This document shows, one piece after another, positions 26,488-32,926 of a stretch of DNA of 33,829 nt. A program made the position numbers and the translations under genes. Position 1 is the first letter of the stretch, and each line of letters opens with the position of its first letter. The notes under the pieces were generated by a model. That model searched no databases, was not told where the DNA came from, and worked only from the letters and a program-made list of their open reading frames with translations. The DNA is taken from assembly GCA_014727925.1 (NCBI GenBank), contig WJMN01000034.1:1-33829 (forward strand), written 5' to 3'. This stretch comes from Microcaldota archaeon (GTDB lineage Archaea > Micrarchaeota > Micrarchaeia > Anstonellales > Bilamarchaeaceae).

Positions 26488-26631
26488 GATAACACCAATA
26501 GTAATTAATGTGTGATAGTAAATGTTTAAAAAGGTATATTGTTGCTCCTGTTGCTGCTTTTCCTGCCCTGTCTGGTTGGATGGGATTGAGTTTTTAAATA
26601 TTTTCAATATAACTATTTGATTGCAACTTTT
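26488..26631. promoter_or_regulatory. Divergent promoter region between the 576-residue gene and tRNA-Gly(GCC)
   Basis: On the minus strand TTTTTAAAC (26524-26532) is the likely TATA element of the 576-residue gene, giving a leader of about 14 bases with GGTG. On the plus strand TTTTTAAATATTTT (26591-26604) lies about 35 bases ahead of tRNA-Gly. The rest is unremarkable. Confidence 0.5.
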
Positions 26632-26703
26632 GCGGCCGTAGTCTAGTGGTTATGATTCGAGATTGCCAATTTCGAGGCCCGGGTTCAATTCCCGGCGGCC
26701 GCA
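26632..26703 (+). tRNA. tRNA-Gly (anticodon GCC)
   Basis: The acceptor stem GCGGCCG (26632-26638) pairs with CGGCCGC (26696-26702), and the discriminator is A26703. The anticodon stem CGAGA/TTTCG (one G-T pair) encloses TTGCCAA, giving GCC. The T stem CCGGG/CCCGG encloses TTCAATT. It is 72 bases with no intron or CCA. It is the second glycine isoacceptor in the window. Confidence 0.96.
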
Positions 26704-26806
26704 TTTTCCCGGTACTATGAGGGGAAGTGTCTGATTAATTCTGGTAGGGCCTTGTGCCAACCTGTACTGTTTTTATTGCTAATCCAAGATTCCTCATTGT
26801 GATAAA
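26704..26806 (+). promoter_or_regulatory. Promoter region of the small coiled-coil gene
   Basis: GTTTTTATTGC (26769-26779) is a TATA-like element centred about 32 bases before ATG 26807. A short T-run (26705-26708) follows tRNA-Gly. No other element was recognised. Confidence 0.4.
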
Positions 26807-27142
26807 ATGGAGGAAAAAGAAGCTGGAGAACCTGAAAGGAGTTTTGAGAGGGAAGAGGACCTGTTGACATTCGTTGAAGAGCGGGTAAAGCAGATTAACA
26901 ACAAGCTGGATGACCTAGAAAGGATTCAGTTTAGCGAAAGTCAGGAGGAATTCGAAAAACACGCAGAAGAAATAGGTGGGGGAATTGGCAGGCTCCAAAA
27001 AAACATAAAACAGAATTACATAAAATTCTCCGGTGGGAAAAATGTGGTGGAAAACTGGGAGGAGATACCAATGTATTCCTGGACTGTCCGTCTGCAGGAA
27101 AGGCTTACTGAGATAAAAGATACCAACACTGTGGGAGTATAA
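26807..27142 (+). CDS. Unrecognised 111-residue acidic coiled-coil protein
   Basis: I do not recognise this small protein. It is strongly acidic at the N-terminus (MEEKEAGEPERSFEREEDLL), then forms a likely coiled coil with heptad hydrophobics (VEERVKQINNKLDDLERIQF and EKHAEEIGGGIGRLQKNIK). It ends with a short region containing WEEIPMYSWTVRLQERL. There is no signal peptide or membrane segment. It lies 39 bases before the 525-residue gene on the same strand and may be cotranscribed and act with it. A TATA-like element precedes its ATG. Confidence 0.65.
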   Translation: MEEKEAGEPERSFEREEDLLTFVEERVKQINNKLDDLERIQFSESQEEFEKHAEEIGGGIGRLQKNIKQNYIKFSGGKNVVENWEEIPMYSWTVRLQERLTEIKDTNTVGV

Positions 27143-27181
27143 AGCAAAAACAATAATAAGCTCTGATGAGATATTGGTTAA

Positions 27182-28759
27182 ATGGCCCAAAAAAAGAAAC
27201 GGGAGGTTGAGGGACCGCCCGAACCTGTGCAGAAAGCAGAAACTCCTAAAAAACTTGGAACTGTTCCGGTTAAAGTTGAAAAAAACTGGTTTGTAGAACA
27301 CATAGAGGCAGAGCTTTTCCGGGCAGGATTCAGCAGTGCAGGGGACGTCGTAGGTGGAGAACTGCGGCTTACGGAGATGGGGCCTGTATTCCTGGGCATA
27401 CGGGGGGGCGCAATACTTCACCAGATGATGGGGGAGATGCCATTCTTGGGGGGAAGGCTAGGTGTTGAAAAAGCAACAGAAGATTGGGATTTTTACTCCA
27501 CCATAAATTTTACCGCATTCCGGGGAAGAGAATTGGCAAAGGGAAGCGAATTAAGGATATATTCTGATGCAGGGGTGGTCTGGGAGCCAATAGGTCCAGA
27601 GGAGGCAAATGGATTTAGCATGAAATTGGGTGCAGAAATGAATCTTGACATAGACACTGGCCTCTGGGGGGCATACCTTGAGCCCCTGAAAGCAGGGTTT
27701 GGGACTTCTGCAAGCTATGGCAAAATAACTGTTTATGCAATAGAAGAAGTACTTGCAGGAGGGAAGAAACCCGGCTCTGCAAAAATGGAAGTCCTTGCCC
27801 CGCACCATAAAAAAACAAAGGCCGGGGTTATTATGGACCTGCACCCGACAGAAATAGAACTGATGGGCTTTTTCAGCAAACTGGAGAAGGGGGGAGAGTT
27901 CATAATACGCTCAGAATCAGAGCATTTTGCCCCTGAGGTATATGTGAAAGGTGCAAAAAGGGATGCCATGCTGCCTGATGAACTGACTGTGGGGATGCGC
28001 TTCAGATTTGGTGGAAAACACAAACAGTTTGCAGTAGAGGGGGAGCAGACTTTTGATGAAGAACTGGGTGAGGGCAGGGCCCGGATTATTGATTTGGAAG
28101 GAGAGGGGGATTATCAGCAAGCAGCAGAAAATTTTGCCTCTGCCCTGAGGGATTCAGAAACTTTTGATGAATTTGCAAGCAAATATGAAAATCTATCTAC
28201 ATATGATTTGCTTTATGCAGTTTACAAACTGGGGAGGAAAGCTCTGGAGGGGGCAGACACTGAAACAGCAAAAAAAATGGATGAGGGTGGTGCATTTGCA
28301 GACACTACAGAAAAGCTCTCAAAACTCAGCACAGATGATGTCTATGGAGCCCTCAGAGAATACATAGAAACTGGTGAGATGGGGGGTGTGGGTGCAGGAA
28401 CATGTGCAAACATTTCCATATTGCAGGCCGAACTGCTGAGAAGAGGGGGGCTGGAAGCAAACCCCCTGGGCATAGCTTACTCAGGGCAGGGGCATGTTGT
28501 TGTAACCGCCTTTGACCCTAAAACAAAAAAATCATACCTTATGAACTGGAGCGATATATATGAGAGGGACGGGAGAAATATCTGGCCTCTGATACAGAAA
28601 CTCTCAAAAGAGCGTGGAACACTAATTGGGTGGATAGACATTTACGACAAGAACAATAACCTTGTCGGAAGGTATGAGGGGCCTGAGGGGAAGATGACCA
28701 GAAAAGCTGCGGGGGCTGAGGAAACAAGCGGAAAACTAAGGGACCGCCTCAGTAAGTAA
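27182..28759 (+). CDS. Unrecognised 525-residue protein with possible transglutaminase/papain-like C-terminal domain
   Basis: No family is firmly recognised. After a Lys-rich, disordered start (1-35), residues about 40-310 alternate hydrophobic and polar residues with many Gly and aromatic positions (for example WDFYSTINFTAFRGREL and GAYLEPLKAGFGTSASYGK), suggesting an extended beta-sheet or barrel-like domain. Helices follow at about 310-400. The last 125 residues contain GAGTCANISILQAELLRRGG (C408), GQGHVVVTAFDPKTKKSYL (H438) and MNWSDIYE (N455, D458). The Cys, His, Asp/Asn order and spacing resemble a transglutaminase-like or papain-fold site. There is no signal peptide, so export is not supported. 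The catalytic reading is inference. ATG at 27182 begins MAQKKKREVEG. Confidence 0.7.
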   Translation: MAQKKKREVEGPPEPVQKAETPKKLGTVPVKVEKNWFVEHIEAELFRAGFSSAGDVVGGELRLTEMGPVFLGIRGGAILHQMMGEMPFLGGRLGVEKATEDWDFYSTINFTAFRGRELAKGSELRIYSDAGVVWEPIGPEEANGFSMKLGAEMNLDIDTGLWGAYLEPLKAGFGTSASYGKITVYAIEEVLAGGKKPGSAKMEVLAPHHKKTKAGVIMDLHPTEIELMGFFSKLEKGGEFIIRSESEHFAPEVYVKGAKRDAMLPDELTVGMRFRFGGKHKQFAVEGEQTFDEELGEGRARIIDLEGEGDYQQAAENFASALRDSETFDEFASKYENLSTYDLLYAVYKLGRKALEGADTETAKKMDEGGAFADTTEKLSKLSTDDVYGALREYIETGEMGGVGAGTCANISILQAELLRRGGLEANPLGIAYSGQGHVVVTAFDPKTKKSYLMNWSDIYERDGRNIWPLIQKLSKERGTLIGWIDIYDKNNNLVGRYEGPEGKMTRKAAGAEETSGKLRDRLSK

Positions 28760-28913: not shown

Positions 28914-28997
28914 GCAGGGGTAGCCAAGTGGTCAAAGGCGCTAGATTCAGGGTCTAGTCGGTTAGTCCGTTCGAGGGTTCGAATCCCTTCCCCTGCA
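28914..28997 (+). tRNA. tRNA-Leu (anticodon CAG)
   Basis: The acceptor stem GCAGGGG (28914-28920) pairs with CCCCTGC (28990-28996), and the discriminator is A28997. The anticodon stem CTAGA/TCTAG encloses TTCAGGG, giving CAG. It has a long class II variable arm and a T stem GAGGG/CCCTT containing TTCGAAT. It is 84 bases with no intron or CCA. No convincing TATA box lies at the usual distance; the palindrome at 28879-28896 occupies that position. Confidence 0.96.
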
Positions 28998-29080: not shown

Positions 29081-32000
29081 TCAGTGAAGATTCATATAGA
29101 AGAAATATGTTTCAAAAGTGCTCTGTGCATAAGGAGTAGGAACCATCATTTCATAGTCTCCCTGCTCGCCATTGAAGAACTGCCCGTTTTGGGTTATATT
29201 TACACAGAAAACCATTTCATCTTTTGAAGGCGTAAACTCTGATTTGTAAGCACATGTTCTAAATCCTCCGGATGCTCCGGTATCTGCATAATCTGCACCA
29301 GAGAGGAAAATGCCGCCAAAGCTGAGGGTGCAGTTTGGATTGCTAAATGTATTGGCACCCGAATCAGTTGCCCCTGGGGAGAAGCCCCATGCAGAATCGA
29401 TGTCGGCTCCCCTTGCTCCTGTTGCATTCATGGTGGTTACTGCCGAAGCAGTTGAAGCGCAAACCAGCCCCCCACTTGCAGAAGTCCAGTTCCAGGTATA
29501 CATAAACTGTGTATCATTTTCCTCTGCAAGGTGCAGGGTGCCTGTAGTGTTCCCATAAAAGCCTGCCCATTTTTCTGTGGATAGATTTGAATCAAGATTA
29601 ACACTGCTAACATTCCCGCCTTCAGTGGAGATATTTCCCGCAGTGATGTTGGGAATGAACCTCCCGGTTGAAATAAAAGTGACATTGGCAGTCCCAAGGT
29701 GGATGTCCGCAGAATCAAAGGAATAGAAAATATCGGTGAGATTCAGCATTTCATATCCTGGAGCATTGCATGTTACGTTCCAGGCCAGGCTAAGATTTGA
29801 GAATGTGCGGTTGTGGTAGTACAGGCCGCTTGAGGCATTGTAGGACATGGGTGAAGGTCCAAAAGGAGCTTCGGCAAAATAGATGTTGCATGTGGCACCG
29901 GTTATTGTGGAGCCGGAACTTACATTTGTATAATTTGCAAAAAAGAACACGTTATCTCCCGGCTGTTGTTTCTTGTTTCCGCCCTCGGGGTCATTATCAT
30001 CCCAGATCCTCATCTGGGCATTGGGACCTGCAGTATAATTGGAAAACCCTGGAACTTCAAAGTGATATGTCCCCCCTTCATAAGAGATAAACTGGCAGAT
30101 AGCACCGGGGCACTCCTCACCGTTTCTGTAGATAATCGGTTGTGCATTGTAGGGAAGATTGTAAATCCACACTGTAGCAGGCAGATCAAAATTTGATACG
30201 GGAGTAGTGCTGACATCTGCCAGGTTGGATTCAAGGGTTACGAAATTACCTATATTGATTCCTGCAATATCTATGGGCCCGGGCCAGTAAATTTTCCCAT
30301 TGCCAACTAATTCTACTGTAAGGCCGCTAAAGCTGCTTGTGTTTATTATACTGGAAACATCAGTGGTGCTTCCATCAAACCCTCCTGCGCCCGCAGCCGA
30401 ATTCCCTGTGCAGTCCATGTCATTTGCCTTGTTAAAAGTATATTCTTCTGAAAAAGGAGAATCATATGTCCAGGAGTAATCTGAAGATCCGGCAGAGTTG
30501 CAGCTCCATCCTGCAGGAACAGACCAGTATTCTGAAAGGTCACATCCATACGTTCCGTAATCCATGAAATAATACTCTTCTGCTTCCTTGAGAATTGCAA
30601 GTTGCTGGGAAAGGCCTCCGCATCCTGGGGAGTAGCCTCCGCTTCCGCATCCGGGCGCATCTATCCAATAGTCATAGCGGGTTGCAGTAGCATTTGAATC
30701 CCCTTTGACATACGACCAGTTGTAGTTTGAGGGTGTGGCATAGTTGCATACCCATTCTCCTGCTGAGGTGAATGTAGGGAATCCGAAAAGGGCAGAAACA
30801 TTGCAGGTGTATGTGCCGTGTGCATCATAGTAATCAGATTCTGCCACCTGCAGCCCTTCTATATCATCATTGAGATTGTCGTAGCATGCCCCGGGTCCAA
30901 GATTTACATTGATTGTGAAATTGCGTGTTTCTGTGTGGTTGGAGTTCCCATTTGTGTCATAAGCAGTTGCATTCACATAATACCTTCCTGTGTCTAGCAG
31001 TGTAAAGTTCGCAAAAAGGTAGTCTGCAGAATCAGTAAATGCAGTTGAATTAAGAGAGCCATCTTGGGAATAAAGGAAAATTGTTATGTTTTCTATTCCA
31101 AAAAAGTCGGATGCAGAAACATTCATCTGGGCATATCTGCGCTCAAGATAAGCTCCTTCATCCTCACAGCCAGTGCTGAATTCTATTGACGGTCCCCCAT
31201 CATCGGTTATGGTAAAATTCCTTGTTTCGGAACCTGTGCTCGCCCCTGAACCGCTGCAGTTGATGCTCCAGTTGTGGGGCCCCAGGGAAAAACCGGAAGC
31301 CGGGAATACCGTGGTGGTTGCATGAGCAACTGAGGAATTTGTCTGATTAAGGATACTATCTATGTAAAGTGAGCATATCATGCTCTCCGAAATGGAATTA
31401 GTCTGGTTGAATGAAAAATTAACTTCCCCGCCATATGGGTAAGAGTCACCTTCTGCTGGAAGCTCAAGGGTAACCTCAAGGGTTGGGCTGCCTATAGTTA
31501 TGTCCCTGCTCCCTGTGGAATCAATATTGCTAGAAGAGTCTTCTGCATAAACTTCGTAAGTATATGTGCCGTTAAGAAGCCCGGCAGTGGCATTTCCGGA
31601 CTGGTTTGCAAAAAAATACCATTGGGTGCTATTATGCTTATTCAGGTTGGAAACATACTGCTCATAAACTTCTTCAGGGGAGAGGGCGCGGTCCCAGACC
31701 CTAGGTTCGTCTACTGTGCCATCAAATGGAGTTCCTCCGCTCTGGCGCTTACCTATGAGCAGCGGGGTCCCTGAATCAACTATTCCCCCATTGTAATTTG
31801 CGCTTCCTTTCTCCACACCATCTATATACACCTTTATGGTTGAACCATCGTAAGTACCAACTACATAGTACCAGGAATCTGCTAAAAGAGTATTTGAAGA
31901 ACCTGCAGATGCCCAGTTGCTCCAGCTCTGGCCAACTGAAAAACTTAGTGAATTGTCAGTAGCCAGCAACATCTCATATCCTTCCCTGTTGCTTGCGTGC

Positions 32001-32926
32001 ACAAGTTTGGATATAACAGGTTTCCAGTGTATTCCATCGCCTCCGGAATCAGGCTTAATCCAGCTTGCCACGGTTATTGCATCCGTAATCTGCAAGGATG
32101 CATCATCTCCGCAGTTTACATAATCGTCAGAGCCATCTAGCTCCACCCCCTCACGGTATTTGCCCGGTCCATAAAGTGTATCCTCACCTCCTTCATAAAG
32201 TTCCCATTCCTCAACCCTGAGCCAGTTTATCTCAGGGGTGCCATTGAGGATAAGAATGCGGTAGTAGCGGTAGTCCTCAGTGTTGGAAAAAGTTTCATTG
32301 AACCAGGTAAGTTCTTCATCGTGCGTAAAAAAGGTGAGGTTGGCCCAGGTAGAGTTGTCATCTGAAGCCTGGAGGACACCGCCTATAGTAACTGCATCAT
32401 CATGATAAAGGCGGATTTTTGTTACTGTCTTCTCGGAGCCTTCTCCAAAATCAACCATGAGCCAGTGGCCTGTTGCTGCATTTGGGGACCACCACCAGGT
32501 TCCCAAGTTTCCGTCGAATGCAAGGGAAGGATAATACGTAGAGTAAGTACCCGAGGCTGTTTTTGTGGCAGAAGAAGTATCGATCTTGCTGTAACCTGTA
32601 GATTCCATTCCATAGAATGTTCCGTTATTTCCGTAACCTGATATATCTGCTGCGTAAGTTAGGTTGTCCCCTATTGGTGCAACATTGTCAAGGTTTAGGG
32701 CGAGCTTGAGGGAATTATCATAAACTGTATAATTGGTCCCATTCCAGGCATAAGTAATATTATCAAGATTCTGCTCTTCAATTGAAACATTGAAAATGAA
32801 GGAAGTATTGGTAGTGACTGCACCGTCTTGGAGAGTGGGGGGGATAAATTCTGCACTGGGAAGGGAAAGGAGAAGGCCCCACAAAAATACAATGGACAAC
32901 AGGTATTGGGGGCCCCTAAACTGCAT
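29081..32926 (-). CDS. Large secreted multidomain adhesin-like protein (LamG with inserted F5/8C, Ig-like and pilin-like modules)
   Basis: This is a 1281-residue secreted protein with an N-terminal signal (YLLSIVFLWGLLLSLPSAE). Domains in order: the start of a LamG/concanavalin domain (about 76-107, with DISGYGNNGTFYG); an F5/8 type C (discoidin) module (about 109-245, with SLAFDGNLGTWWWSPN and HWLMVDFG); the remainder of the LamG domain (about 250-425, with YVNCGDD, IKVYIDG and VDEPRVWDRALS); two Ig-like domains (about 481-675); two Cys-containing pilin-like repeats (about 681-830); and further beta-rich domains to the end. It has very many N-x-S/T sequons. No C-terminal anchor or sorting motif is visible. 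It probably binds glycans at the cell surface. ATG 32926 has a TATA-like TTTATATAA about 25 bases upstream. Confidence 0.85.
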   Translation of the reverse strand: MQFRGPQYLLSIVFLWGLLLSLPSAEFIPPTLQDGAVTTNTSFIFNVSIEEQNLDNITYAWNGTNYTVYDNSLKLALNLDNVAPIGDNLTYAADISGYGNNGTFYGMESTGYSKIDTSSATKTASGTYSTYYPSLAFDGNLGTWWWSPNAATGHWLMVDFGEGSEKTVTKIRLYHDDAVTIGGVLQASDDNSTWANLTFFTHDEELTWFNETFSNTEDYRYYRILILNGTPEINWLRVEEWELYEGGEDTLYGPGKYREGVELDGSDDYVNCGDDASLQITDAITVASWIKPDSGGDGIHWKPVISKLVHASNREGYEMLLATDNSLSFSVGQSWSNWASAGSSNTLLADSWYYVVGTYDGSTIKVYIDGVEKGSANYNGGIVDSGTPLLIGKRQSGGTPFDGTVDEPRVWDRALSPEEVYEQYVSNLNKHNSTQWYFFANQSGNATAGLLNGTYTYEVYAEDSSSNIDSTGSRDITIGSPTLEVTLELPAEGDSYPYGGEVNFSFNQTNSISESMICSLYIDSILNQTNSSVAHATTTVFPASGFSLGPHNWSINCSGSGASTGSETRNFTITDDGGPSIEFSTGCEDEGAYLERRYAQMNVSASDFFGIENITIFLYSQDGSLNSTAFTDSADYLFANFTLLDTGRYYVNATAYDTNGNSNHTETRNFTINVNLGPGACYDNLNDDIEGLQVAESDYYDAHGTYTCNVSALFGFPTFTSAGEWVCNYATPSNYNWSYVKGDSNATATRYDYWIDAPGCGSGGYSPGCGGLSQQLAILKEAEEYYFMDYGTYGCDLSEYWSVPAGWSCNSAGSSDYSWTYDSPFSEEYTFNKANDMDCTGNSAAGAGGFDGSTTDVSSIINTSSFSGLTVELVGNGKIYWPGPIDIAGINIGNFVTLESNLADVSTTPVSNFDLPATVWIYNLPYNAQPIIYRNGEECPGAICQFISYEGGTYHFEVPGFSNYTAGPNAQMRIWDDNDPEGGNKKQQPGDNVFFFANYTNVSSGSTITGATCNIYFAEAPFGPSPMSYNASSGLYYHNRTFSNLSLAWNVTCNAPGYEMLNLTDIFYSFDSADIHLGTANVTFISTGRFIPNITAGNISTEGGNVSSVNLDSNLSTEKWAGFYGNTTGTLHLAEENDTQFMYTWNWTSASGGLVCASTASAVTTMNATGARGADIDSAWGFSPGATDSGANTFSNPNCTLSFGGIFLSGADYADTGASGGFRTCAYKSEFTPSKDEMVFCVNITQNGQFFNGEQGDYEMMVPTPYAQSTFETYFFYMNLH

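Follow-up and report, generated by a model that had tools for sequence, protein, structure and literature searches.

The window, by which we mean the whole stretch of DNA that was analysed (33,829 nucleotides, contig WJMN01000034.1), belongs to a micrarchaeal genome of 1.0 Mb. Between tRNA-Gly(gcc) and tRNA-Leu(cag) it encodes products of 111 and 525 amino acids on the same strand, separated by 39 bases (Table 1). As a sequence-only reading of this DNA had claimed, both ORFs are real in size, strand and spacing, with homologues in sister genomes, and C408, H438, N455 and D458 are present at the positions it gave in the 525-aa protein. It was also right that this protein has no signal peptide: the codon immediately 5′ of the ATG is an in-frame TAA, which leaves no room upstream for a signal peptide in this frame, and no Sec signal peptide is found in the protein itself. 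We refer to this form as leaderless, and the same genome also encodes a leader-bearing form. Between the host species and a sister species (G000 and G001), the identities of the large gene at the three codon positions are 0.92/0.96/0.76; judging from these sequences, the gene is under protein constraint. Scans for promoters and terminators gave matches at chance level only.

Table 1. Features of the locus, in window positions
Feature	Positions	Strand	Evidence
tRNA-Gly (gcc), upstream landmark	26631..26704	+	
111-aa gene, kept in 6/6 genus genomes, no conserved partner of the 525-aa gene	26807..27142	+	genus comparison
Inferred insertion with the 525-aa gene, ending at the 525-aa stop; four sister genomes lack it after the 111-aa gene	27143..28759	+	flank comparison
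525-aa leaderless barrel/thiol-enzyme fusion protein	27182..28759	+	ORF, homologues, profile comparison
16 predicted beta-strands, outer-membrane-type beta-barrel, residues 41-291	27302..28054	+	model, OmpG match, relative's model, strand alternation
Helical linker and predicted transglutaminase/papain-like thiol-enzyme domain, residues 308-525	28103..28756	+	model, conservation, profile link
Cys408 codon (TGT), predicted nucleophile, first residue of helix	28403..28405	+	conservation, model
His438 codon (CAT), predicted base, in strand	28493..28495	+	conservation, model
Asn455 codon (AAC), predicted third residue	28544..28546	+	alignment, model
tRNA-Leu (cag), downstream landmark	28914..28997	+	

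The 111-aa gene and its large neighbour

The 111-aa gene follows tRNA-Gly(gcc) in all six genomes of the genus, and tRNA-Leu(cag) lies downstream of it in five of them, the contig of the sixth (G003) ending before that point. Its homologues in the other five genus genomes are 44-62% identical, no convincing homologue was found outside the genus (E 0.03 or worse), and its product has weak, non-significant Pfam matches only. Other genes at this locus also drew attention. The gene beside tRNA-Gly (window:24757-26607, L059:3389-4555) is transcribed divergently and poorly conserved, with 28.7% identity between sister species, and keeps its position. In three sister genomes a small hydrophobic protein is encoded between tRNA-Leu and a 5S gene (L060:7775-8092, L063:3653-4060, L064:9191-9529), and downstream in the window (29081-32926) lies a gene for a 1281-aa, probably cell-surface protein with laminin-G-like and F5/8 type C domains.

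The sequence-only reading had taken the 111-aa and 525-aa products for a two-gene protein-modifying system. The two genes are adjacent in the host genome and in G001, and co-transcription is possible. The large gene adjoins the 111-aa gene in only these two of the six genus genomes, and the pair is therefore not a conserved system. The large gene lies elsewhere in three: in G002 tRNA-Leu, another ORF and a 5S gene stand between the two genes, in G005 the large gene is 3.2 kb away, and in G003 it is on another contig, with no start within 131 bases after the 111-aa stop. In G004 the 111-aa gene is present and no leaderless copy was found. The two products also differ greatly in their identity between G000 and G001, which is 89% for the 525-aa protein and 61% for the 111-aa protein. 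The flanks speak against a joint system as well, since the 55 bases after the 525-aa stop in G000 and G001 match the 55 bases that directly follow the 111-aa stop in G002-G005. None of 1000 shuffles scored as high in seven of the eight comparisons, and 1/1000 did in the eighth (G001 with G002), while in G000 and G001 themselves the sequence behind the 111-aa stop did not match those flanks, all eight comparisons being at shuffle level. We consider a two-gene system very improbable, and the gene pair is incidental.

The flank match across the two stops means that an insertion placed the large gene behind the 111-aa gene, ahead of the sequence that used to follow it. When G000 is compared with G001, 57 of 220 fourfold sites differ in the 525-aa gene and 59-67% in its neighbours (two examples being 142 of 234 and 84 of 138), and the amino-acid identity of four conserved neighbours and the 111-aa protein is 61-80%, a range that excludes the poorly conserved 616-aa neighbour (28.7% amino-acid identity, 37 of 56 fourfold sites different). 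The low divergence of the 525-aa gene relative to its neighbours suggests, from sequence comparison, that it was recently exchanged between species. The window copy is flanked by no clear direct repeat. In G002 the leaderless copy (L060:5720-7700) lies between two identical 5S rRNA genes, with a 182-base direct repeat of 96% identity at a spacing of 1799. In G005 a 5S gene stands after a leaderless copy (L064:15262-17186), which is flanked by a 41-base repeat (95% identity, spacing 1797) made up of the end of the 5S sequence and its flank. In both genomes the repeat edge falls within two bases of the last base of the leaderless gene. At the same locus, G004 (L063:4762-4876) has a single 5S gene and no copy, an apparent empty site. 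The leaderless genes thus appear to behave as single-gene inserts at stable-RNA loci.

Two forms of one family

With the 525-aa protein as query, matches were found in 14/59 genomes, and a profile search matched 21 of the 43 genomes of the host's archaeal family. In a draw of 295 genomes from the phylum, 21 matched, all from the host family except for one weak order-level match. The leader-bearing form was matched along most of its length in 19/43 family genomes, G062 having a fragment only and G003 the leaderless form only. At all 15 leader-bearing loci examined, the product shows, as judged by eye, a basic and a hydrophobic stretch and in most cases an A-x-A-like site. Nine leaderless copies are spread over five of the six genus genomes (G005 alone has five), and G033, from another genus, has one related copy. 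In the seven other full-length leaderless copies the open frame leaves room for about 11 codons at the most before the used start. Downstream of the leaderless gene cluster in G005, a 563-aa protein with an apparent signal peptide is encoded (L065:11422-13113).

The two forms belong to one family, as the profiles of the leaderless form (one row of which, L006, is partial at a contig end) and of the leader-bearing form align over 445 columns with an E-value of 2.2e-30. A tree of 30 enzyme domains places each form on its own side of one branch, and support for the leaderless group is 89/70 with the G033 copy and 99/98 without it. Because each form occupies one side of that branch, we abandoned the view that leaderless genes had a repeated origin from leader-bearing ones. 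The gene-neighbour comparison covered 13 of the 15 leader-bearing loci; six of these have, no more than about 3.5 kb from the leader-bearing copy, a deoxyhypusine synthase gene, the family being named from one of them. Deoxyhypusine synthase is an archaeal and eukaryotic enzyme, and its presence therefore speaks against bacterial contamination.

The scatter of the leaderless copies could also mean that they are mobile effectors, namely pore-forming thiol enzymes that reach a kin or host cell through lysis or contact. Their distribution is patchy and multi-copy, they are mostly only 26-31% identical to the window copy within the genus, and the exchange between species and the insertion of single genes at stable-RNA loci would suit such a role. 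On the other hand, no immunity gene was seen with the window copy, the large ORF being the only one of at least 90 aa on its strand within the insert. Pfam, PHROGs and PADLOC left the 525-aa protein without assignment, nothing in PHROGs or PADLOC matched it at E ≤ 0.1, PADLOC did not class it as a known anti-phage defence protein, and searches of viral, phage and plasmid collections found no relative of it. We regard an effector role as improbable. A Pfam match to RPN7 (E 0.081) and matches to PIF6 in the PDB profile search (E 0.1-0.5) were not significant and were dropped.

Predicted barrel and thiol-enzyme domains

The N-terminal part of the protein had been noted as beta-rich, which holds; the predicted outer-membrane-type barrel and the leader-bearing relatives had been missed. 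AlphaFold2 predicted 16 strands between residues 41 and 291 of the window protein, with a mean pLDDT of 68.5 overall and a pTM of 0.71, and a similar meander in the leader-bearing relative L067, with a pLDDT of 88.8 and a pTM of 0.87, both predictions being built on 15-16 sequences. The closed antiparallel beta-meander is strong in the L067 model and of lower confidence in that of the window protein. The window barrel was modelled from alignment rows about 20% identical to the window protein, and pLDDT is low at either end of the barrel and at about residues 91-150, 161-170 and 191-210; its fold is therefore partly borrowed from the alignment, and we are less sure of it than of the fold predicted for L067. 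In structure comparison, L067 matched PelB (Z 16.1, 233 aligned residues, 3.3 Å), CymA (Z 15.7), OmpG (Z 15.1) and BcsC (Z 15.1), and the window model matched OmpG (Z 12.8, 214 aligned residues, 4.0 Å).

Amphipathic strands were found in both forms. In the 15 leader-bearing rows, 2.8% of the residues on the hydrophobic strand face are charged compared to 20.3% on the other face, and the corresponding values in the nine leaderless rows are 7.9% and 32.0%. For each of the two families the two-residue alternation is above that of all 1000 within-strand shuffles, and it is less clear for the window strands alone, where 15/1000 shuffles were as high.

These data also bear on whether the beta-rich part is instead an extracellular beta-sandwich or another soluble fold, wrongly drawn by the predictor as a closed barrel. 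The barrel is a prediction from 15-16 sequences, which would allow this, as would the lack of Omp85 in the family (see below) and the weak scores of Foldseek alone, whose best E-values are 8e-4 to 9e-4 and whose query TM-scores are below 0.3 among the matches listed, which include some GFP-fusion entries. PDB sequence searches with whole-protein profiles likewise gave no match (A5) or chance-level matches only (A1). Against a soluble fold, nearly all 10-residue blocks of the L067 barrel have a pLDDT of 86-96, the two lowest being 77 and 78, the 50 structural neighbours listed for L067 are bacterial outer-membrane proteins or complexes by title, and the alternation is regular, with little charge on one face. 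A soluble beta-fold is unlikely, and an outer-membrane-type beta-barrel is the predicted fold of this region.

A further alternative is that the leaderless copies are soluble cytoplasmic enzymes, in which the barrel would serve as a soluble scaffold or substrate chamber. The stop directly before the start of the window gene and the short upstream frames of the seven other copies agree with this, as does the higher charge on the hydrophobic face of the leaderless rows relative to the leader-bearing ones. Yet this face is still mostly uncharged (5-11%) in all nine leaderless rows, the window copy being at 11%, and the lumen of a 14-16-strand barrel is too wide for side-chain packing, so that such a barrel fits a membrane better than water. 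We consider a soluble enzyme rather unlikely.

The C-terminal domain carries the Cys-His-Asn/Asp arrangement that had led the sequence-only reading to suggest a transglutaminase or papain-type fold, and conservation, the order of secondary structure, spacing and a weak profile link all agree with it. C408 and H438 are invariant in all nine leaderless rows, window included. Across 23 aligned enzyme domains (eight of the nine leaderless rows, L020 with its insert being omitted, and 15 leader-bearing rows), only three columns are invariant, namely a Phe, the Cys and the His, and the third residue is Asp in 18, Asn in three (among them the window protein), Gln in one and Ser in one. In the window model C408 begins a helix (408-421), H438 is in a strand (436-445) and N455 ends a strand (450-455), which is the order of helix and strands expected for such a fold, and the L067 model has the same arrangement with C434, H464 and D479. 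The spacing in the window protein, C-15-G-15-H-17-N, is close to the C-15-G-18-H-15-D of archaeal transglutaminase-like proteins, a comparison set taken from the same archaeal family (19 of 20 loci, L100 being omitted). When the profile of the enzyme domain was compared with that of this set, Cys fell on Cys and His on His with a score of 20.9, compared to a column-shuffle mean of 11.8, and 1/200 column shuffles was as high; the hhalign probability of this link is 6.9%, or 1.9% with a longer alignment.

Among 16 family members, six match Transglut_core (PF01841) at E ≤ 1, with a best E-value of 0.0067 (17.1 bits), none reaches the 23-bit cut-off, and for the window protein the Pfam scan gave no Transglut_core match. 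Since the profile scores are weak and below the cut-off, we treat the domain as working in the manner of a transglutaminase and do not file it under Transglut_core. NCBIfam gave no assignment for the 23 enzyme domains (three families matched one member each, best E 0.023), and a PDB profile search with the domain gave one match, at chance level. Fold searches, with up to 50 matches listed each, showed no transglutaminase or papain chain among them; the matches listed were mostly bacterial or mitochondrial barrels, and the searches are therefore uninformative on the enzyme domain. Taken together, a transglutaminase/papain-like thiol enzyme is supported by the model and by conservation, the sequence evidence for the link being weak.

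Relation to known systems and to the archaeal outer membrane

Outer-membrane-type barrels are a fold of bacteria and organelles. Compared to bacterial OmpG, CymA, PelB and BcsC, the family is alike in its predicted fold, barrel size and amphipathic strands, and its relatives have Sec-type signal peptides (by eye) like those of bacterial outer-membrane barrels. It differs from these barrels in its archaeal host, in having a C-terminal enzyme domain, in the absence of a leader from the window copy, and in that no sequence similarity to solved porins and no Omp85 were found. Compared to PF01841 and papain-like enzymes, it shares the Cys at the start of a helix, the His and Asp/Asn in the following strands, the close spacing and the weak profile link. 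All 16 members scanned are below the Pfam cut-off of PF01841 and are separate from its canonical members, which are found in 40/43 genomes; the third residue is Asn, Gln or Ser in 5/23, and a barrel is attached.

Other Micrarchaeota proteins join a similar Cys...His motif and a beta-rich part in one chain, also with no obvious signal peptide by eye, in the reversed order, with the enzyme part first and the beta-rich part last. These were found in 4/84 genomes (query genome included) of other archaeal families of the order (G162, G051, G150 and G047; L102:2908-4650, L106:1144-2982, L107:1144-2769 and L108:1369-3009) and form their own group in the tree of enzyme domains. Should a barrel be confirmed in them, barrel and enzyme would occur together in either order. 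The family differs in domain order and in organisms from bacterial DUF7840-type barrels, which we take to be barrels fused to a Cys enzyme domain; one leader-bearing member matched DUF7840 within the barrel at a non-significant E-value of 0.17.

No Omp85 (PF01103) was found in any of the 43 family genomes, while 7/14 control genomes matched, and the family genomes therefore have no known insertion machinery for such barrels. We take ARMAN cells to belong to or near the Micrarchaeota. One study reports an inner and an outer membrane for ARMAN cells (PMC4243693), and a survey reports that no Omp85/TpsB proteins were detected in archaea (PMC4104836). The OMPdb paper has the word archaea in its reference list only (PMC9581022), and a paper on cave and gorge deposits contains the terms Micrarchaeota, outer membrane and porin (PMC9653421). 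In the literature searched, which was mainly open-access with few subscription journals or preprints, no paper was found that joins Micrarchaeota, outer membrane and beta-barrel, or Micrarchaeota and transglutaminase.

Our preferred reading, which we hold to be about evenly balanced between right and wrong, is that the 525-aa protein is a leaderless, recently inserted member of a Micrarchaeota-specific barrel/thiol-enzyme family and works as a tethered thiol enzyme. The sequences themselves show the conservation, the missing leader, the kinship of the two forms and the pattern of insertion, and both folds are predicted. For the leader-bearing branch, we infer that the protein would exit through Sec, that its barrel would most likely insert into an archaeal outer membrane, and that the enzyme domain would act at the membrane face as a peptidase or an acyl-transferase (crosslinking) on envelope proteins, with C408 as the putative nucleophile, H438 as the putative base and N455 probably in the place usually taken by Asp. 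The window copy keeps the domain plan and catalytic residues of the family, lacks a leader and appears to move between genomes as a single-gene insert; it would be a tethered thiol enzyme of this same kind, acting on a membrane or complex to which it gains access independently of Sec.

A broader reading is more tentative and falls somewhat short of even: Micrarchaeota may have native outer-membrane-type barrels with a thiol enzyme, Sec export and Omp85-free assembly, of which the leaderless branch would be a mobile insert at stable-RNA loci. Within this lineage-specific fusion family, both the strength and the surprise lie in the leader-bearing branch, and the relatives with export signals may be a type of outer-membrane protein so far undescribed in Micrarchaeota. 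If this is true, there would be an archaeal family of outer-membrane barrels and a route of assembly independent of Omp85. A confidently modelled leader-bearing barrel family, matched along most of its length in 19/43 genomes of one archaeal family, makes the question of which proteins would render such an outer membrane permeable testable by expressing one protein, and the fused Cys-His-Asp domain would provide a measurable activity, while the leaderless mobile branch raises the question of how a barrel works without the Sec route.
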